DNA of 64,000 nt from Armatimonadota bacterium (GTDB lineage: Bacteria; Armatimonadota; UBA5829; DTJY01): the NCBI GenBank assembly GCA_023511795.1, contig JAIMAU010000001.1, positions 62,001 through 126,000 on the forward strand, written 5' to 3'. This document shows, in pieces, positions 12,659-24,254 of this stretch (position 1 is its first letter; each line of letters starts with the position of its first letter). Below the pieces are notes generated by a model that was not told where the DNA came from, searched no databases, and worked only from the letters and a program-made list of their open reading frames with translations. A program made the translations under genes and the position numbers.

Positions 12659-12928
12659 GATCGTGCACCTGCTTTCGATAAGGCACCCCAAGTGATACCG
12701 CACGTAGCCAACTCCGGCCAGGAAACCCTGCGGCACACGGGCGAACTTACTTACCGCTGCTTCCTTCCGGACCTGACGGGGTTCATAAGCCGGCCGTTGC
12801 GCAGGACCCGGCCATCAGCGCCGCTTGCGGCGGCCGAACCTCAAAGTGCCAGACCTCGAGCAGGAATTCGACCCCGCTATAGCGGATTGCGGGTACAGGG
12901 CACCGCTAGCTCCCCGTCTAGCACGATC
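12659..12928 (-). ncRNA. ffs: signal recognition particle RNA, large bacterial type
   Basis: About 270 nt. The RNA strand carries the S-domain core GTCAGGTCCGGAAGGAAGCA (complement of 12757-12777), the sequence that binds Ffh. The 5' part GCTAGACGGGGAGCTAGCGG with GTGCCCTGTACCCGC forms the Alu domain, as in Bacillus-type RNA. The ends GATCGTGC and GCACGATC pair perfectly, which sets both boundaries. It lies just upstream of dnaX on the same strand. Confidence 0.95.
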
Positions 12929-17175: not shown

Positions 17176-17252
17176 GGCGGAGTACCTCAGTTGGTTAGAG
17201 GAACCGGCTCATACCCGGTGCGTCGGCGGTTCGAGTCCGCCCTCCGCTACCA
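17176..17252 (+). tRNA. tRNA-Met (CAT), elongator type
   Basis: 77 nt including an encoded CCA. Acceptor stem GGCGGAG / CTCCGCT, D stem CCTC / GAGG, anticodon stem ACCGG / CCGGT with loop CTCATAC, T stem GGCGG / CCGCC. The anticodon stem lacks the three G-C pairs of initiator tRNA, and the acceptor stem begins with a G-U pair. A lysidine-modified tRNA-Ile2 also has a CAT anticodon, but the ends GGCGG...CCGCTACCA match elongator tRNA-Met. Confidence 0.93.
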
Positions 17253-17375: not shown

Positions 17376-17891
17376 TTAAGGTGCAAGGGATTCTATTTTC
17401 CAGGTTGTAGTCAGCGTATGAGTGCCCGCAAGAATATTGCTACCGGGCGCCGCAAGCGTCCAAATAATGGCCACACTGCCGGATGTAGCGTCTGCGTTTC
17501 CCTGAAATACTGGGGTGAATGACGATGAGCTTAGAGTGCCAGAAAAACCTGTCCCGTTAACCGCCGAGCTGGTTGTCCAGCTTATTTTTGATGCAGGTAT
17601 GTATTCACCGCCTTCTGCTGGACGAGCGAAATTCACAGAATTTGCTTGTATACTTATGCGAATTCCACAGCCTGGTGTAAGGATTGCATCACTAAATTCT
17701 GCAACAGTTGGATTTGGAGTACCAATTGTAGGAAATTCAGCATTTGTAACCAGAAAACTTATGGAAGTTGGTAGAGTCATGTTGACACTGTCGCCGTTGG
17801 CGTTCCCTAGCATGATTATGTTCAGCGCAAGGCTTAGCATAACGGAAATTTGTATTATGGTCAGTTTTTGACAAGAACAAATGCTAATCAT
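17376..17891 (-). CDS. secreted WxL-like protein 2
   Basis: 171 residues from the ATG at 17891, whose ATGA overlaps the stop of the barrel gene upstream, so translation is coupled. A hydrophobic signal (IIQISVMLSLALNIIMLGNANG) is followed by a beta-rich domain. Its last 14 residues HTLTTTWKIESLAP match the end of the paralog at 21137-21682 (HTLQATWRFSSFTP), and the segment LRISIQ/LRIEIA with a following GG turn is also shared. The C-terminal 'xLTWxL..AP' pattern is that of WxL surface domains, with WKI in place of WxL. It is probably a secreted fibre or surface subunit; assignment by pattern only. Confidence 0.66.
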   Translation of the reverse strand: MISICSCQKLTIIQISVMLSLALNIIMLGNANGDSVNMTLPTSISFLVTNAEFPTIGTPNPTVAEFSDAILTPGCGIRISIQANSVNFARPAEGGEYIPASKISWTTSSAVNGTGFSGTLSSSSFTPVFQGNADATSGSVAIIWTLAAPGSNILAGTHTLTTTWKIESLAP

Positions 17892-20182
17892 TGCAATTTT
17901 GTGTGCCATTCTACTGGCATGATGTGCACCAGCTTCCCCCTTTCGTCAAGGGTGAATTCAATATCGGTTATGCATTTATCAGGTTTGAGTTCGATTTCGA
18001 TGCTATCGTTGCCACGCACGATATATCGTTTTGGCAGAGCTTCTACTGCAATTCGAATGCGATAGCGGCCAGGTTCTAGATTGCAAAAAGTAAATACCCC
18101 ATCCCGACCCGTAGCGGTTGCCCGGTCGGCAATGCATACTGGTATATCTGGCAAACCTTCATCAAGGTCAAATCTGCCGTTGCCATTTTTATCTAGATAC
18201 ACTCGGCCTGATACACATCCAAGGGGTATAAGATGAAAATCCAATTCTTGCTTTGATTCCCGTGTGACTGCAATATCACGTATGGCGCTAGTGAGTTTAT
18301 AATCTGCTGGGACGCTTTCTTCAGCAACAGTTGCTTGGTAGGCTCCTGTTGGGACGCATTTGAAAAGATAACGCCCATGTTTGTCAGTTATGGCGGAATA
18401 TGGACCCAAGCGAACCGTGATGTTCTCGAGCGGTTGTCCTAATTGATCGGTGACTGTTCCCGCAACTTCCCCGCCGCGTGCTGGGACCCACGTAGGCCAA
18501 GTCTTTTTGAGCATCACGAGGAAACCTCGCTTACCACGCAGGTTATCTGCAGATTGGTAAGGGCTTAAACGGCCGTAGTCAAGTATTAGAGATAATCCGT
18601 TTGAAAGCTGATGGTCTAGACGAACTCTTAGAAGATCAGAATCCGCTAAATTAGGAAATCCGCTTATGGTTTGCAAGGTGGTTTGCTTGGAAAGCCTGAA
18701 GCTTGCGATGAGCTGTTGTTGATTAGCTGCACAGCCGCCTATGGATTGCCTAGTTAGTTGATAGTCAATATGGACTCTTTGGTTTAGCAGCATCGAGAGC
18801 GAGCTTATTAAGCTACTGCCGGAATTGTGAATTTCCAGATTTCGACCCGTAAGGCTGTCTACCTTGGAGGAGTTTTCTTGGTAGCGCACGAAGAGGTTTG
18901 CTTTGTTTGAAAGTGGTATTGTAACTCCGACGCCGTGCCCTGTTGAAGACTGGTTTAAAACTTTATGTTCTGTGCGGTCAAGTGTTAGAGCCCAGCGCTT
19001 CAACAAAGGAAACCTTAATCCGAGGGTTCGGAATAAAGACTCTTGGTCGTTGGCATCTGTAGAGGAGCTGTAACCATAAAAAATAGATGTGGTTGGCGTG
19101 ATTTGAACAGATGCAAATATACCTGATGAATGACCAAATCCAGAAGGCAGGTGGCGTAGGAATGCGTAAACTTCAAATGGATCCCTATCGCATCGAACTG
19201 ATAAGTATCTCGATTCGTCTGTCGCTATTTCCCCATTAAGCTGCACATATTCGTTTAAACGCACGGCGTCTCTGTATGTTACTATTGCTTCGGGATTCGT
19301 TGTCTTTTCTGTTTTCATATAAGCACCAAGGTAGGGCCACCTTCCGCCGGCATCCCAAGTGTAGCGGATTCCTTTCACTAGACCCCATATCTCGCTGTAC
19401 AAATCGCCTCCCTCAAAGCCACGGCCTCCTTCTTTGTCAAGCCATCTGAAATGGCTATTATGCAACCGCGTACCTTGGTTTCCTTTGGTAACTAGCGCCC
19501 ATAAGTCTGTCTCACCACCCCAAACCTTGCCATTTGCCGTCAGTTCAAATCCCCAGTCAAAGCCTTGCACGTGCCCAATGCCAACGCCAATATTGAGCTT
19601 CTCCTTTGTCGGAGGTAGATTGATGCTGGAGAGTTTATTCTTGGTAAGTTGGGGCATGTTTTTTTGTTGAGCCCTGGGCTTTGGGATAATAAGTGCTCGC
19701 CATCCATCGCCGATATCGTTTTGTTCGTTTAGTCCAGGTATAGGCAATATAGGGCGACTGAAGGTGACGCGCTTGTTGGAGGAATCTACTGTAACAGCGA
19801 GACCGCTTAGTTTTGCGATGGCATGGGGATCCAAAAATAAGCAAAAACCCTGTCTCATCGCAGGAAGGGCTAGTGGTGTTACTTCATCACGACAGCTCAG
19901 TACCCCGGCGCCGTCAGTCCACTGCCACAGTCTGCCATCTACACTTCTAAGTAGCAGACTTTGCCCTTCAACTGAGGTATGAATACCGAGTGGTGGGCCA
20001 ATGCCTGTGGAGTTTAGAAGTACGCTCCCTGCTACTGGTATGGGAGAGGCTGCTTGAGTTAGGTCAGTTTCTTCGTAAAACACTGCCCATGATGAGCGTT
20101 CAGCATGGCTGTCCGCACACGAAAAAAAACATATGATGCCAGTGATGGCGGTAATGCAAAGAAAAGCTCGAATCGTCGGCAT
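17888..20182 (-). CDS. probable outer-membrane barrel with Cna-B/carboxypeptidase-regulatory repeats
   Basis: 764 residues. A signal peptide (IRAFLCITAITGIICFF) is followed by an N-terminal globular part (to ~190). A long region (~190-590) then runs in alternating beta strands of the outer-membrane type (FLRHLPSGFGHSSGIFASVQ, then NLFVRYQENSS). Two Ig-like repeats close the protein: GTVTDQLGQPLENITVRLG (carboxypeptidase regulatory-like) and GRVYLDKNGNGRFDLDEGLP (SdrD/Cna-B-like, with a DxNxNGxxD turn that may bind calcium). The layout of barrel plus terminal Ig domains recalls ushers of fimbrial assembly, though no usher signature was recognised. Its start overlaps the stop of the chaperone-like gene (TAATG). 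Confidence 0.62.
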   Translation of the reverse strand: MPTIRAFLCITAITGIICFFSCADSHAERSSWAVFYEETDLTQAASPIPVAGSVLLNSTGIGPPLGIHTSVEGQSLLLRSVDGRLWQWTDGAGVLSCRDEVTPLALPAMRQGFCLFLDPHAIAKLSGLAVTVDSSNKRVTFSRPILPIPGLNEQNDIGDGWRALIIPKPRAQQKNMPQLTKNKLSSINLPPTKEKLNIGVGIGHVQGFDWGFELTANGKVWGGETDLWALVTKGNQGTRLHNSHFRWLDKEGGRGFEGGDLYSEIWGLVKGIRYTWDAGGRWPYLGAYMKTEKTTNPEAIVTYRDAVRLNEYVQLNGEIATDESRYLSVRCDRDPFEVYAFLRHLPSGFGHSSGIFASVQITPTTSIFYGYSSSTDANDQESLFRTLGLRFPLLKRWALTLDRTEHKVLNQSSTGHGVGVTIPLSNKANLFVRYQENSSKVDSLTGRNLEIHNSGSSLISSLSMLLNQRVHIDYQLTRQSIGGCAANQQQLIASFRLSKQTTLQTISGFPNLADSDLLRVRLDHQLSNGLSLILDYGRLSPYQSADNLRGKRGFLVMLKKTWPTWVPARGGEVAGTVTDQLGQPLENITVRLGPYSAITDKHGRYLFKCVPTGAYQATVAEESVPADYKLTSAIRDIAVTRESKQELDFHLIPLGCVSGRVYLDKNGNGRFDLDEGLPDIPVCIADRATATGRDGVFTFCNLEPGRYRIRIAVEALPKRYIVRGNDSIEIELKPDKCITDIEFTLDERGKLVHIMPVEWHTKLQ

Positions 20183-21024
20183 TACCTCCCATCGGTGCCT
20201 GCCGGTCTGTTGATTTGTAGTTCTTTCTCGGCTCCCATCAGGTAGTCAAGACCAACGTCAACGATTACTCTGACCTTATATGTGCCAGACGGTAGTATGC
20301 TAGGATTGGGTAGGGGAGCGCTGAATTCGCATGTATTCAGCGGCTCCGGTAGCAGTGGCTCACCGCCAATTTGCACCGTAGTAACCGGATTCTGTTCGCC
20401 AGGTTTGTAAAACTCAAACGTGCCATTTACTTTGAGGGGAATATTGCCATCGTTTTTCAACGTTACGGCAACTTTTTCAGCCGTGATGCGAACACCGGTG
20501 ATCTTGGCAGAGCGGGTTGCATTAGGTATCTCAATGAAAATACCAACGGATACCGAACCCCTGAAAATCACTGAAACGCCTGATGGTTTAGGTGCAAGCG
20601 GATCAGGAATCTCTTCAACTGTCAAAGCAGCCCAGTAGCCGCCAGGTTCAACCTTGTCAGGTACCCGAATGGTCAGCTTTACAGTCATTGTTTCTCCCGG
20701 ATTGCAGGTAGCCTCGACCGGGTTTACGGTGCACCAAGGGCCGCAAGATCTTTTAACCGTGCCTGGTGTTGCGAAAAATGTATGATTGTTGTCAGCACTG
20801 CGCCACCAATCTTCTAGGCGTACGCGAAAATGTGTGACAGGAGAATCTTTGGCAAGCGTCAAAGTGAAGATATGGTTAAGCACTTGTCCGGGTCTAGCCT
20901 TGGTGCTTATATTTGCGGGCGAAAAGTGGAATCCAATGGCGTGCACAGGCGCCTGGGCTGCAAGGACCACAGATATTCCAAAAATGCCCAGAGCGACTGC
21001 GCTTCCAATATTGCGCGGCCGCAT
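20182..21024 (-). CDS. secreted DUF916/pilus-chaperone-like Ig protein
   Basis: 280 residues with a clear signal peptide ending PVHA. Two Ig-like folds are suggested: an N-terminal one with FHFSPANISTKARPGQVLNH and RVRLEDWW, and a second with VAVTLKNDGNIPLKVNGTFEFY. The VEPGGYWAALTVEE strand resembles WxL-interacting DUF916 proteins and periplasmic pilus chaperones. Its cysteines (CGPWC and C nearby) could form a disulfide. There is no C-terminal membrane anchor, unlike Gram-positive DUF916 proteins. It probably chaperones or anchors the two WxL-like proteins of this operon; that is inference from fold resemblance and position. Confidence 0.6.
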   Translation of the reverse strand: MRPRNIGSAVALGIFGISVVLAAQAPVHAIGFHFSPANISTKARPGQVLNHIFTLTLAKDSPVTHFRVRLEDWWRSADNNHTFFATPGTVKRSCGPWCTVNPVEATCNPGETMTVKLTIRVPDKVEPGGYWAALTVEEIPDPLAPKPSGVSVIFRGSVSVGIFIEIPNATRSAKITGVRITAEKVAVTLKNDGNIPLKVNGTFEFYKPGEQNPVTTVQIGGEPLLPEPLNTCEFSAPLPNPSILPSGTYKVRVIVDVGLDYLMGAEKELQINRPAGTDGR

Positions 21025-21136
21025 TACGATTCCTCCCCATCTTTTAAGTATTCAACAGCAAATTGTCCCGACGCTTACCTCTAGCGTAACCCACAGGTTG
21101 GTGATATTGAAATTAAACCTAAAGGATTACCCCTTC

Positions 21137-21682
21137 TTAGGGCGTGAAGCTAGAGAACCTCCATGTTGCTTGGAGTGTATGGTCGCCCGCACGGTCTACG
21201 GTCGACTTCGCCGCAAGCGTGAAGACCAATGCATTTGTGGATACTTCACTCGCATTAGCTGTGGACATATCTGCTACTTTGGTGTATGTTCCTACAGCGT
21301 CGCTCATACTTGCAGCGTTTCCAGTTCCGCCTGTCCACGATGGGGCGTTCCACGATATGTCTGAACTTGCCCATGTTACCGAACCACCAGACGGTGGAGT
21401 AAAGTTAGCGGCGTTTGGGGCAATTTCAATTCTTAGCTTTTTCCCATCGCTGAGAACTATAGAGGTGGCGCTTACGGTTTGGTTGGCGGAGTTTGTGCTC
21501 GTCGAAACATCGTTCACACTGAAGGTTACAGATGCGGGTACAGTTACATTTGCTTGCTCAGCAACCGTTGCTGTGAAGGTTGTTGTTTGGGATGTGTCCG
21601 GTAGTGTTACAACGGCGGCCCACAACCCGCTGTTTGCGAGCATCATGCTCAAGATTACAGCCACTTTCCTCATATTTATCAC
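21137..21682 (-). CDS. secreted WxL-like protein 1
   Basis: 181 residues; start at a GTG with AAGGAGG five bases upstream (an ATG nine bases later is too far from it). Signal peptide MRKVAVILSMMLANSGLWA. The mature part is Thr/Ser/Ala-rich and beta-stranded, and ends HTLQATWRFSSFTP. It shares that tail and the LRIEIA...GG segment with the second small protein of the operon (17376-17891). The tail matches the C-terminal motif of WxL domains apart from the third residue. First gene of the operon, 112 bases before the chaperone-like gene; a structured leader lies upstream. Confidence 0.68.
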   Translation of the reverse strand: MINMRKVAVILSMMLANSGLWAAVVTLPDTSQTTTFTATVAEQANVTVPASVTFSVNDVSTSTNSANQTVSATSIVLSDGKKLRIEIAPNAANFTPPSGGSVTWASSDISWNAPSWTGGTGNAASMSDAVGTYTKVADMSTANASEVSTNALVFTLAAKSTVDRAGDHTLQATWRFSSFTP

Positions 21683-23276: not shown

Positions 23277-23295
23277 CCTAGTTGAAAGTAGAAAA

Positions 23296-23385
23296 CCGCT
23301 AGGGGTGCTGCCGAGCAGCTGAGACTCCGACGTAAGCGGAGGTCCCTTTGAACCTGATCCGGGTAATGCCGGCGTAGGGAAGCGG
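23296..23385 (+). promoter_or_regulatory. TPP (thiamine pyrophosphate) riboswitch
   Basis: The THI-box consensus is intact: GGGGTGCT, GCTGAGA, then CCTTTGAACCTGATC and GGGTAATGCCGGCGTAGGGA. P1 is CCGCT (23296-23300) with AGCGG (23381-23385). A second copy of the P1 left strand, TCCGCTT at 23430-23436, could pair with the same AGCGG; this gives a ready switch in which ligand binding and the alternative hairpin exclude each other. There is no T run, so control is probably translational. It sits 98 bases before the thi4 start. Confidence 0.96.
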
Positions 23386-23483
23386 AGAGATCTCTTCAAC
23401 CGAAGGCCTCAAAAGCGAGTTTCTCGTTGTCCGCTTAGCATCCCCCTGGCATAAATTTCAATCAAACACCAAGGAGGAAGCAA

Positions 23484-24254
23484 ATGATTGGTAAGGTTTC
23501 AGATTTAGATGTTTCACGCCTTATTATTCAAGACTATTACGAGGTGCTGAGAAACTCTCTTGAGTCGGATGTTATAATTGTGGGCGGGGGTCCAAGCGGA
23601 CTGGTCGCAGGTTATACACTTGCGGAGCAGAACAAAAAGGTGGTAATTATGGAGAAAAGGCTGTCACCTGGCGGCGGCATTTGGGGTGGAGGCAAAGGTT
23701 TCAACAAGGTTGTTTTGGAATCTTCGGTTGGGGACATTCTCCGCGAGTTGGACATATCATTTGAAGAAAATGACGGTTATATTGTAGTTTCATCAGTTCT
23801 CCTAGCAGCATCCCTTATCAAGAAAACTGTCGAGAGTGGGGCAATTTTGCTCAATCTTTTTTCAATTGAGGATGTTTACTTTAACGAAAACCACGAAATC
23901 GCAGGTGTGGTTGTCAATGATACAGCATACAAGATGACGAACCTTCATGTAGATCCTCTCACATTTTGTAGCAAAATTGTTATGGATAGCACCGGCCATG
24001 ATGCAGTTGTGTGCAATTGTCTTGCACGGCGTGGATTAATTCAATTAAAGGGCGAGCAGCCGATGAATGCACAACTAGGCGAAGAGGGTGTAGTAGAAGG
24101 CACAAGGGAGATTTATCCAGGGCTGATAGTGACGGGCATGGCGTCTGCACAGTTCCATGGGACTTGTCGAATGGGACCAATCTTCGGAGGCATGCTTCTA
24201 TCAGGCAAAAAAGCAGCAAAAATCGCAATTGAGAAACTGGCTAAGGGCTGCTAG
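23484..24254 (+). CDS. thi4: Thi4-type thiazole synthase, histidine (sulfide-using) form
   Basis: 256 residues. Rossmann GGGPSGLVAGYTLAE, GGGIWGGGKGFNKVV and the C-terminal GMASAQFHGTCRMGPIFGGML are typical. The enzyme makes the thiazole carboxylate of thiamine from NAD and glycine. In eukaryotic Thi4 a cysteine at the active site is the sacrificial sulfur donor; here the corresponding position is His155 (NLHVDPL, codon at 23946), as in archaeal enzymes that use free sulfide with Fe(II) and turn over many times. Under control of the TPP riboswitch upstream. The start has AAGGAGGAAG. Confidence 0.93.
   Translation: MIGKVSDLDVSRLIIQDYYEVLRNSLESDVIIVGGGPSGLVAGYTLAEQNKKVVIMEKRLSPGGGIWGGGKGFNKVVLESSVGDILRELDISFEENDGYIVVSSVLLAASLIKKTVESGAILLNLFSIEDVYFNENHEIAGVVVNDTAYKMTNLHVDPLTFCSKIVMDSTGHDAVVCNCLARRGLIQLKGEQPMNAQLGEEGVVEGTREIYPGLIVTGMASAQFHGTCRMGPIFGGMLLSGKKAAKIAIEKLAKGC

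Follow-up and report, generated by a model that had tools for sequence, protein, structure and literature searches.

A probable divergent chaperone-usher-type surface fiber cassette in an Armatimonadota genome

What kind of surface system is encoded by four adjacent genes for secreted proteins in an Armatimonadota bacterium? The genes lie in a 64,000-nucleotide stretch of contig JAIMAU010000001.1 (assembly GCA_023511795.1, positions 62,001 to 126,000), referred to below as the window, and encode a small secreted protein (sA), an immunoglobulin-like (Ig) protein, a larger protein with a barrel-like middle (Bar) and a second small secreted protein (sB). The original prediction, made from the sequence alone, had likened the small proteins to WxL domains and the Ig protein to DUF916 and pilus chaperones, and had considered a chaperone/usher-like or anchor-type assembly. 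We conclude that the cassette is probably a divergent chaperone-usher-type surface fiber system and not a WxL system. The chaperone/usher and DUF916 parts of the original prediction are supported, whereas membership of the small proteins in the WxL family is not. The chaperone/usher reading is strongly supported by a predicted barrel with its domain order, a chaperone-like Ig protein with profile similarity to known chaperones, a kept gene set and order, and constant co-occurrence; two classes of N-terminus among the small proteins were also computed here.

Gene order and occurrence

The cassette occupies window positions 17376-21682, and all four open reading frames were confirmed on the minus strand:

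21137..21682, minus strand: sA, putative secreted rod-type pilin-like subunit, 181 amino acids (aa); GTG start, with an alternative ATG at 21673, three codons in
20182..21024, minus strand: Ig protein, PapD/DUF916-like putative periplasmic chaperone, 280 aa; profile matches, without a C-terminal membrane helix
17888..20182, minus strand: Bar, usher-like putative outer-membrane protein, 764 aa; structure model, Foldseek and usher profile match
17376..17909, minus strand: sB, putative secreted tip-type pilin-like subunit without an N-terminal extension, 177 aa as listed; probable start at 17891

Both proposed couplings are present in the sequence. The Ig and Bar genes meet at 20182 in a TAATG that gives one base to both genes, and an ATGA at 17888-17891 joins the Bar stop with codon 7 of the listed sB frame, which makes 17891 the probable sB start. 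A genome search found one Ig gene and one Bar gene in the window's genome, with sA and sB as the only small genes. Omp85 is present in the genome as well, indicating an outer membrane and thus a diderm host.

The original prediction would have been refuted had homologues of these genes never occurred together; instead, the cassette set recurs in Armatimonadota relatives. A search with the Ig protein gave a match in 36 of 291 Armatimonadota genomes, about ten of them strong, and a profile of the Bar barrel alone was found in 13. The Bar-family gene is accompanied by cassette partners in every genome where the contig lets its neighbors be seen. The order sA(-sA)-Ig-Bar-sB is found in five relatives (G178, G228, G043, G044 and G026) and, across contig breaks, in G224 and G225, such that the position of sA upstream of Ig is kept. 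Both subunit genes precede Ig in G280 and in the more distant G194, G196 and G197, and in G225 and G058 a contig starts inside Bar and continues with one more small gene, which in G225 clearly lacks an N-terminal extension. Every complete Bar-family cassette seen has at least one sA-type and at least one sB-type gene. A scan of the genome contigs gave six loci, apparently in genomes already found by the genome search.

The Pfam Usher model matched 2 of the 291 genomes, the window's genome not among them, and neither the Usher nor the SCPU model matched in the window's genome. The canonical Usher in G228 was rejected as a member of the Bar family. It belongs to a separate, ordinary archaic chaperone-usher operon with SCPU subunits (L064, on G228:C105), and this metagenome-assembled genome has an estimated contamination of 6%; the contig may be a contaminant. 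G058 seemingly has a second, different cassette (L100:38-4584, on G058:C338) that encodes a small protein, an Ig protein and a 943 aa protein, and its window-type barrel sits on another contig.

The Ig protein and Bar

Profiles were compared pairwise with hhalign, and the percentages given here are probabilities judged against reversed and shuffled controls only, not against a database. The Ig alignment was built from proteins of fitting size and genomic place. The resulting family profile matched archaic pilus chaperones at 99.5% over 228 columns with a score of 156, compared with a score of at most 18 and a probability under 1% for reversed and shuffled controls. The same profile matched the chaperones of proteobacterial operons with DUF4402 subunits at 99.6%, Ig proteins of Deinococcus at 99.9% and DUF916 proteins at 99.4%. 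When the profile was restricted to mature proteins of the close family, the corresponding values were 96.6% (archaic), 96.3% (DUF4402-type), 99.4% (Deinococcus) and 98.0% (DUF916), and DUF916 against archaic chaperones, profile against profile, gave 96.5%. The description of the Ig protein as DUF916/pilus-chaperone-like is thus upheld, about equally for both families. Pfam PapD models gave no direct match to the window Ig protein, Pfam DUF916 matches occurred in only 4 of 17 Ig homologs, the window protein not among them, and sequence profile searches of the PDB with the Ig protein gave no informative match.

The maximum C-terminal hydropathy of the Ig protein is 1.27, compared with 1.9-3.7 in seven DUF916 references, and this absence of a C-terminal membrane helix fits a soluble periplasmic chaperone. 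The donor strand of pilus chaperones lies in the F1-G1 region. The F1-G1 region of the Ig protein aligns with archaic chaperones, DUF4402-type chaperones and DUF916 proteins, which places a candidate donor strand:

20524..20580, minus strand: putative donor strand G1 (Ig protein residues 149-167, GVSVIFRGSVSVGIFIEIP), from the F1-G1 alignment

An AlphaFold2 (AF2) model of Bar made from 15 homologs, with a predicted local distance difference test (pLDDT) of 80 and a predicted template modeling score (pTM) of 0.56, was analyzed with DSSP. The model has a small N-terminal domain, a 24-strand barrel and two C-terminal beta domains, and the earlier proposal of a barrel-like middle therefore survived:

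19757..20086, minus strand: Bar N-terminal domain, residues 33-142, from AF2 secondary structure
18482..19606, minus strand: predicted Bar beta-barrel, residues 193-567, 24 predicted strands, no plug insertion, from DSSP on the AF2 model
18230..18466, minus strand: Bar C-terminal transthyretin-like domain 1, CarboxypepD_reg, residues 573-651, like the first usher C-terminal domain (Pfam family E 1.1e-14)
17942..18220, minus strand: Bar C-terminal transthyretin-like domain 2, SdrD_B, residues 655-747, like the second usher C-terminal domain (Pfam family E 1.3e-08)

Cna-B-like repeats had been proposed for Bar; CarboxypepD_reg, SdrD_B and SpaA domains are indeed found at its C-terminus, but they are better read as two usher C-terminal domains. 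An usher combines a barrel of 24 strands with a plug, one N-terminal domain and a pair of C-terminal domains (PMC8410936), and Bar resembles this layout save for the absent plug and a non-canonical N-domain. In a Foldseek search of the PDB the first 11 matches to Bar were all FimD or PapC, the best being 3rfz_B (E 1e-14, probability 1.0). The full-length Bar profile matched ten archaic ushers at 98.0% and the ushers of DUF4402-type operons at 99.5%, with controls at no more than 2%, and these two groups of ushers matched each other at 99.1%. Taken together, the two C-terminal domains matched those of archaic ushers at 95.3%. The N-domain of Bar did not match the canonical N-terminal domain of archaic ushers (0.2%) and gave a weak match of 24.5% to that of DUF4402-type ushers; some Bar homologs match Cu_amine_oxidN1 in this domain (Pfam).

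The small proteins and a proposed assembly route

The small proteins are true paralogs (phmmer E 3e-16), as had been proposed. Their tails, HTLQATWRF and HTLTTTWKI, were confirmed, and the consensus HTLxxTWK stands at the same place in relatives. In the AF2 model of sA, residues 41-181 form a beta-sandwich core with a pLDDT of about 95, and residues 1-42 are disordered. With cleavage sites set by eye at signal-peptidase motifs in 26 proteins, the mature N-terminus up to a common core residue measured 28-35 residues in 14 sA-type proteins and 13-17 residues in 12 sB-type proteins, two ranges that do not overlap. The difference defines one further feature:

21548..21616, minus strand: sA N-terminal extension, residues 23-45 (AVVTLPDTSQTTTFTATVAEQAN), a candidate donor strand carried by 14 sA-type proteins and by none of 12 sB-type proteins

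This extension is disordered in the isolated AF2 model, and the sA cleavage site that bounds it was set by eye at an A-x-A-type motif. Donor-strand exchange expects a rod subunit with a donating N-terminal strand and a tip subunit without one. The two N-terminus classes appear, by sequence, to match this rod/tip difference and are the strongest evidence on the small proteins. In the Csu system, the N-terminal sequence of CsuA/B mediates its polymerization, whereas CsuE, the proposed tip subunit, does not polymerize in this way (PMC4654587).

Judged from sequence and structure models, the cassette would work like a chaperone-usher system, save that neither a plug nor a canonical usher N-domain was found. 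All four proteins would reach the periplasm via signal peptides, where the Ig protein would lend its G1 strand to sA and sB, whose beta-sandwiches would otherwise be incomplete, by donor-strand complementation and then hand both over to Bar. Bar would act as the usher in the outer membrane: its barrel has 24 predicted strands, its N-terminal domain would do the recruiting, and two transthyretin-like domains follow at the C-terminus. We infer that sB is exported first, as the tip, and without an N-terminal extension it would be unable to complete another subunit. Rod subunits of sA would be added one by one, with the N-terminal extension of each displacing the chaperone strand in the preceding subunit by donor-strand exchange, and the resulting thin fiber on the cell surface may have a role in adhesion or biofilm formation.

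Several results weigh against such a system. No significant sequence match links the small proteins to SCPU, DUF4402 or a Pfam pilin, and Foldseek of sA returned no match with E below 0.07, the highest probability being 0.75 for FimG at E 0.11. DUF916 proteins match the Ig protein as well as pilus chaperones do. For Bar, the TM-scores of the top usher matches are low (0.21-0.35), and the barrel segment alone is weak, with 76.6% against archaic ushers (reversed control 3.1%) and 1.4% against DUF4402-type ushers. Most of the usher profile signal comes from the C-terminal domains, and transthyretin-like domains are found elsewhere too. The usher plug domain is absent, all insertions between strands in the AF2 model being at most about 15 residues.

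The weak barrel signal would also suit an outer-membrane barrel unrelated to ushers, a porin- or receptor-like protein with transthyretin-like domains that possibly binds carbohydrate or matrix, accompanied by accessory secreted Ig and beta-sandwich proteins that form no fiber. Siderophore receptors and OprD-type porins are among the Foldseek matches that follow the ushers, transthyretin-like domains occur in many contexts, and the PDB sequence profile search with Bar was informative for these domains only, with matches that include SdrD and NOMO. However, ushers come first in Foldseek, their E-values lower by several orders of magnitude, and an unrelated barrel would not explain why the Ig protein matches chaperones, why the genes run subunit-chaperone-usher-subunit or why the subunits fall into two classes. 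We consider this explanation very unlikely.

The nearness of the Ig family to DUF916 bears on a further alternative, a version in diderm cells of the WxL/WxLIP cluster of Gram-positive bacteria, where the small proteins would bind peptidoglycan, the Ig protein would stabilize them by strand insertion and the barrel would be an anchor or partner, not an exporter. Predictions for Gram-positive bacteria have the WxL sandwich completed by a hairpin from DUF916 (PMC10599100), and the small proteins have a short C-terminal likeness to WxL domains, with TWK near the end. It is this tail likeness that had led to the WxL match in the original prediction, which we reject: Pfam WxL (PF13731) has no match in the genome or in 26 small homologs, and the small-protein profile reached about 1% against three WxL proteins. 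Moreover, the Ig protein lacks the C-terminal membrane helix that all seven DUF916 references have, the operon contains an usher-like barrel, and wall binding leaves the presence and absence of the extension unexplained. A WxL/WxLIP counterpart is therefore unlikely.

Two pilin families were candidates for sA and sB. The small-protein profile gave 13% against SCPU and under 2% against DUF4402, no SCPU (PF05229) match was found by Pfam in the window's genome or any small homolog, and membership in either family is unsupported. Sequence profile searches of the PDB with the small proteins gave no informative match.

Relation to known systems and neighboring features

Read as a divergent chaperone-usher system, the cassette has a gene order that corresponds to the SCPU(-SCPU)-chaperone-usher-SCPU order of archaic operons in Deinococcus, Sphingobium, Sphingomonas and Variovorax. 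Like archaic (sigma, Csu-type) systems, it has one or more subunits followed by chaperone, usher and a terminal subunit that differs from the rod subunit, a two-domain Ig chaperone detectable by profile, and an usher with an N-domain, a 24-strand barrel and two C-terminal domains. Unlike them, its proteins have no Pfam Usher, PapD or SCPU match, its subunits are not SCPU, and Bar is plugless, with a non-canonical N-domain and C-terminal domains recognizable as CarboxypepD_reg and SdrD_B.

The DUF4402-chaperone-carboxypeptidase-like-usher operons of Proteobacteria (e.g. Polaromonas JS666, L104) are alike in the usher N-domain and C-terminal types (99.5%), in the chaperone (99.6%) and in having subunit genes upstream. 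They differ in that their DUF4402 subunits do not match sA or sB and that a plug-like insert is present in the usher of Polaromonas and missing from Bar. These operons were seen on proteobacterial plasmids (L104:3055-8396, L106, L109, L110), where they are annotated piecemeal only, and they look like an undescribed chaperone-usher branch. No paper on them, or on DUF4402 or DUF916 with an usher, was found among the open-access papers searched.

The nearest Ig proteins outside the phylum are those of Ig-barrel cassettes in Deinococcus (profile 99.9%, tblastn 6e-12), where a CarboxypepD barrel-like protein also adjoins. In contrast to the window, the order there is secreted protein, Ig, small protein and barrel, the small proteins do not match, and the barrel protein is larger (1,013-1,090 aa), with extra N-terminal Ig-like domains. 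The Deinococcus cassettes (L101:4854-10539, L102, L103) lie unannotated on plasmids, and their CarboxypepD barrel-like protein is related to Bar.

Gram-positive WxL/WxLIP (DUF916-DUF3324) clusters likewise have a small secreted protein beside a DUF916-like Ig protein, with strand insertion predicted (PMC10599100); unlike in those clusters, the small proteins here fall outside WxL, the Ig protein is without a membrane helix, and an usher-like barrel is present. On three actinobacterial plasmids (L111:609-2451, L112:649-2463, L113:721-2298) a small secreted protein is encoded directly upstream of a membrane-anchored DUF916 protein, and this small protein ends like a pilin (e.g. PGSYSSTLTLTLF).

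By analogy, hairpin insertion by WxLIP would be formally the same act as donor-strand complementation, and the paper that proposes it makes no mention of chaperones or PapD (PMC10599100). Because the Ig protein is equally near DUF916 and chaperones, a common origin is plausible. Tentatively, and with more doubt than confidence, we suggest that pilus chaperones and DUF916/WxLIP could form one superfamily, where WxLIP strand insertion is the chaperone donor-strand mechanism and the cassette is an intermediate with a DUF916-like chaperone and a plugless usher. If so, strand-donating Ig chaperones would predate the canonical Gram-negative usher or stand independently of it. The near-equal likeness of the Ig protein to DUF916 makes this link between diderm pilus assembly and monoderm WxL systems testable.

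Archaic chaperone-usher systems have been placed in Proteobacteria, Cyanobacteria and Deinococcus-Thermus (PMC4654587). We found no report of a chaperone-usher system in Armatimonadota (Armatimonadetes) among the open-access papers searched, which is not proof of absence. If our reading is true, the chaperone-usher pathway would extend to Armatimonadota in a form missed by standard models, and, with no plug in the usher, one would have to ask what gates the secretion pore.

Other features of the window lie around the cassette. A tRNA-Met (CAT) gene at 17176-17252 is located about 120 bases past the cassette 3′ end on the opposite strand. A thiamine pyrophosphate (TPP) riboswitch (84.5 bits) at 23291-23397 lies just upstream of gene 23484-24254, the product of which looks like a Thi4-type thiazole synthase, and a large bacterial signal recognition particle (SRP) RNA (212 bits) is found at 12661-12926 on the minus strand.

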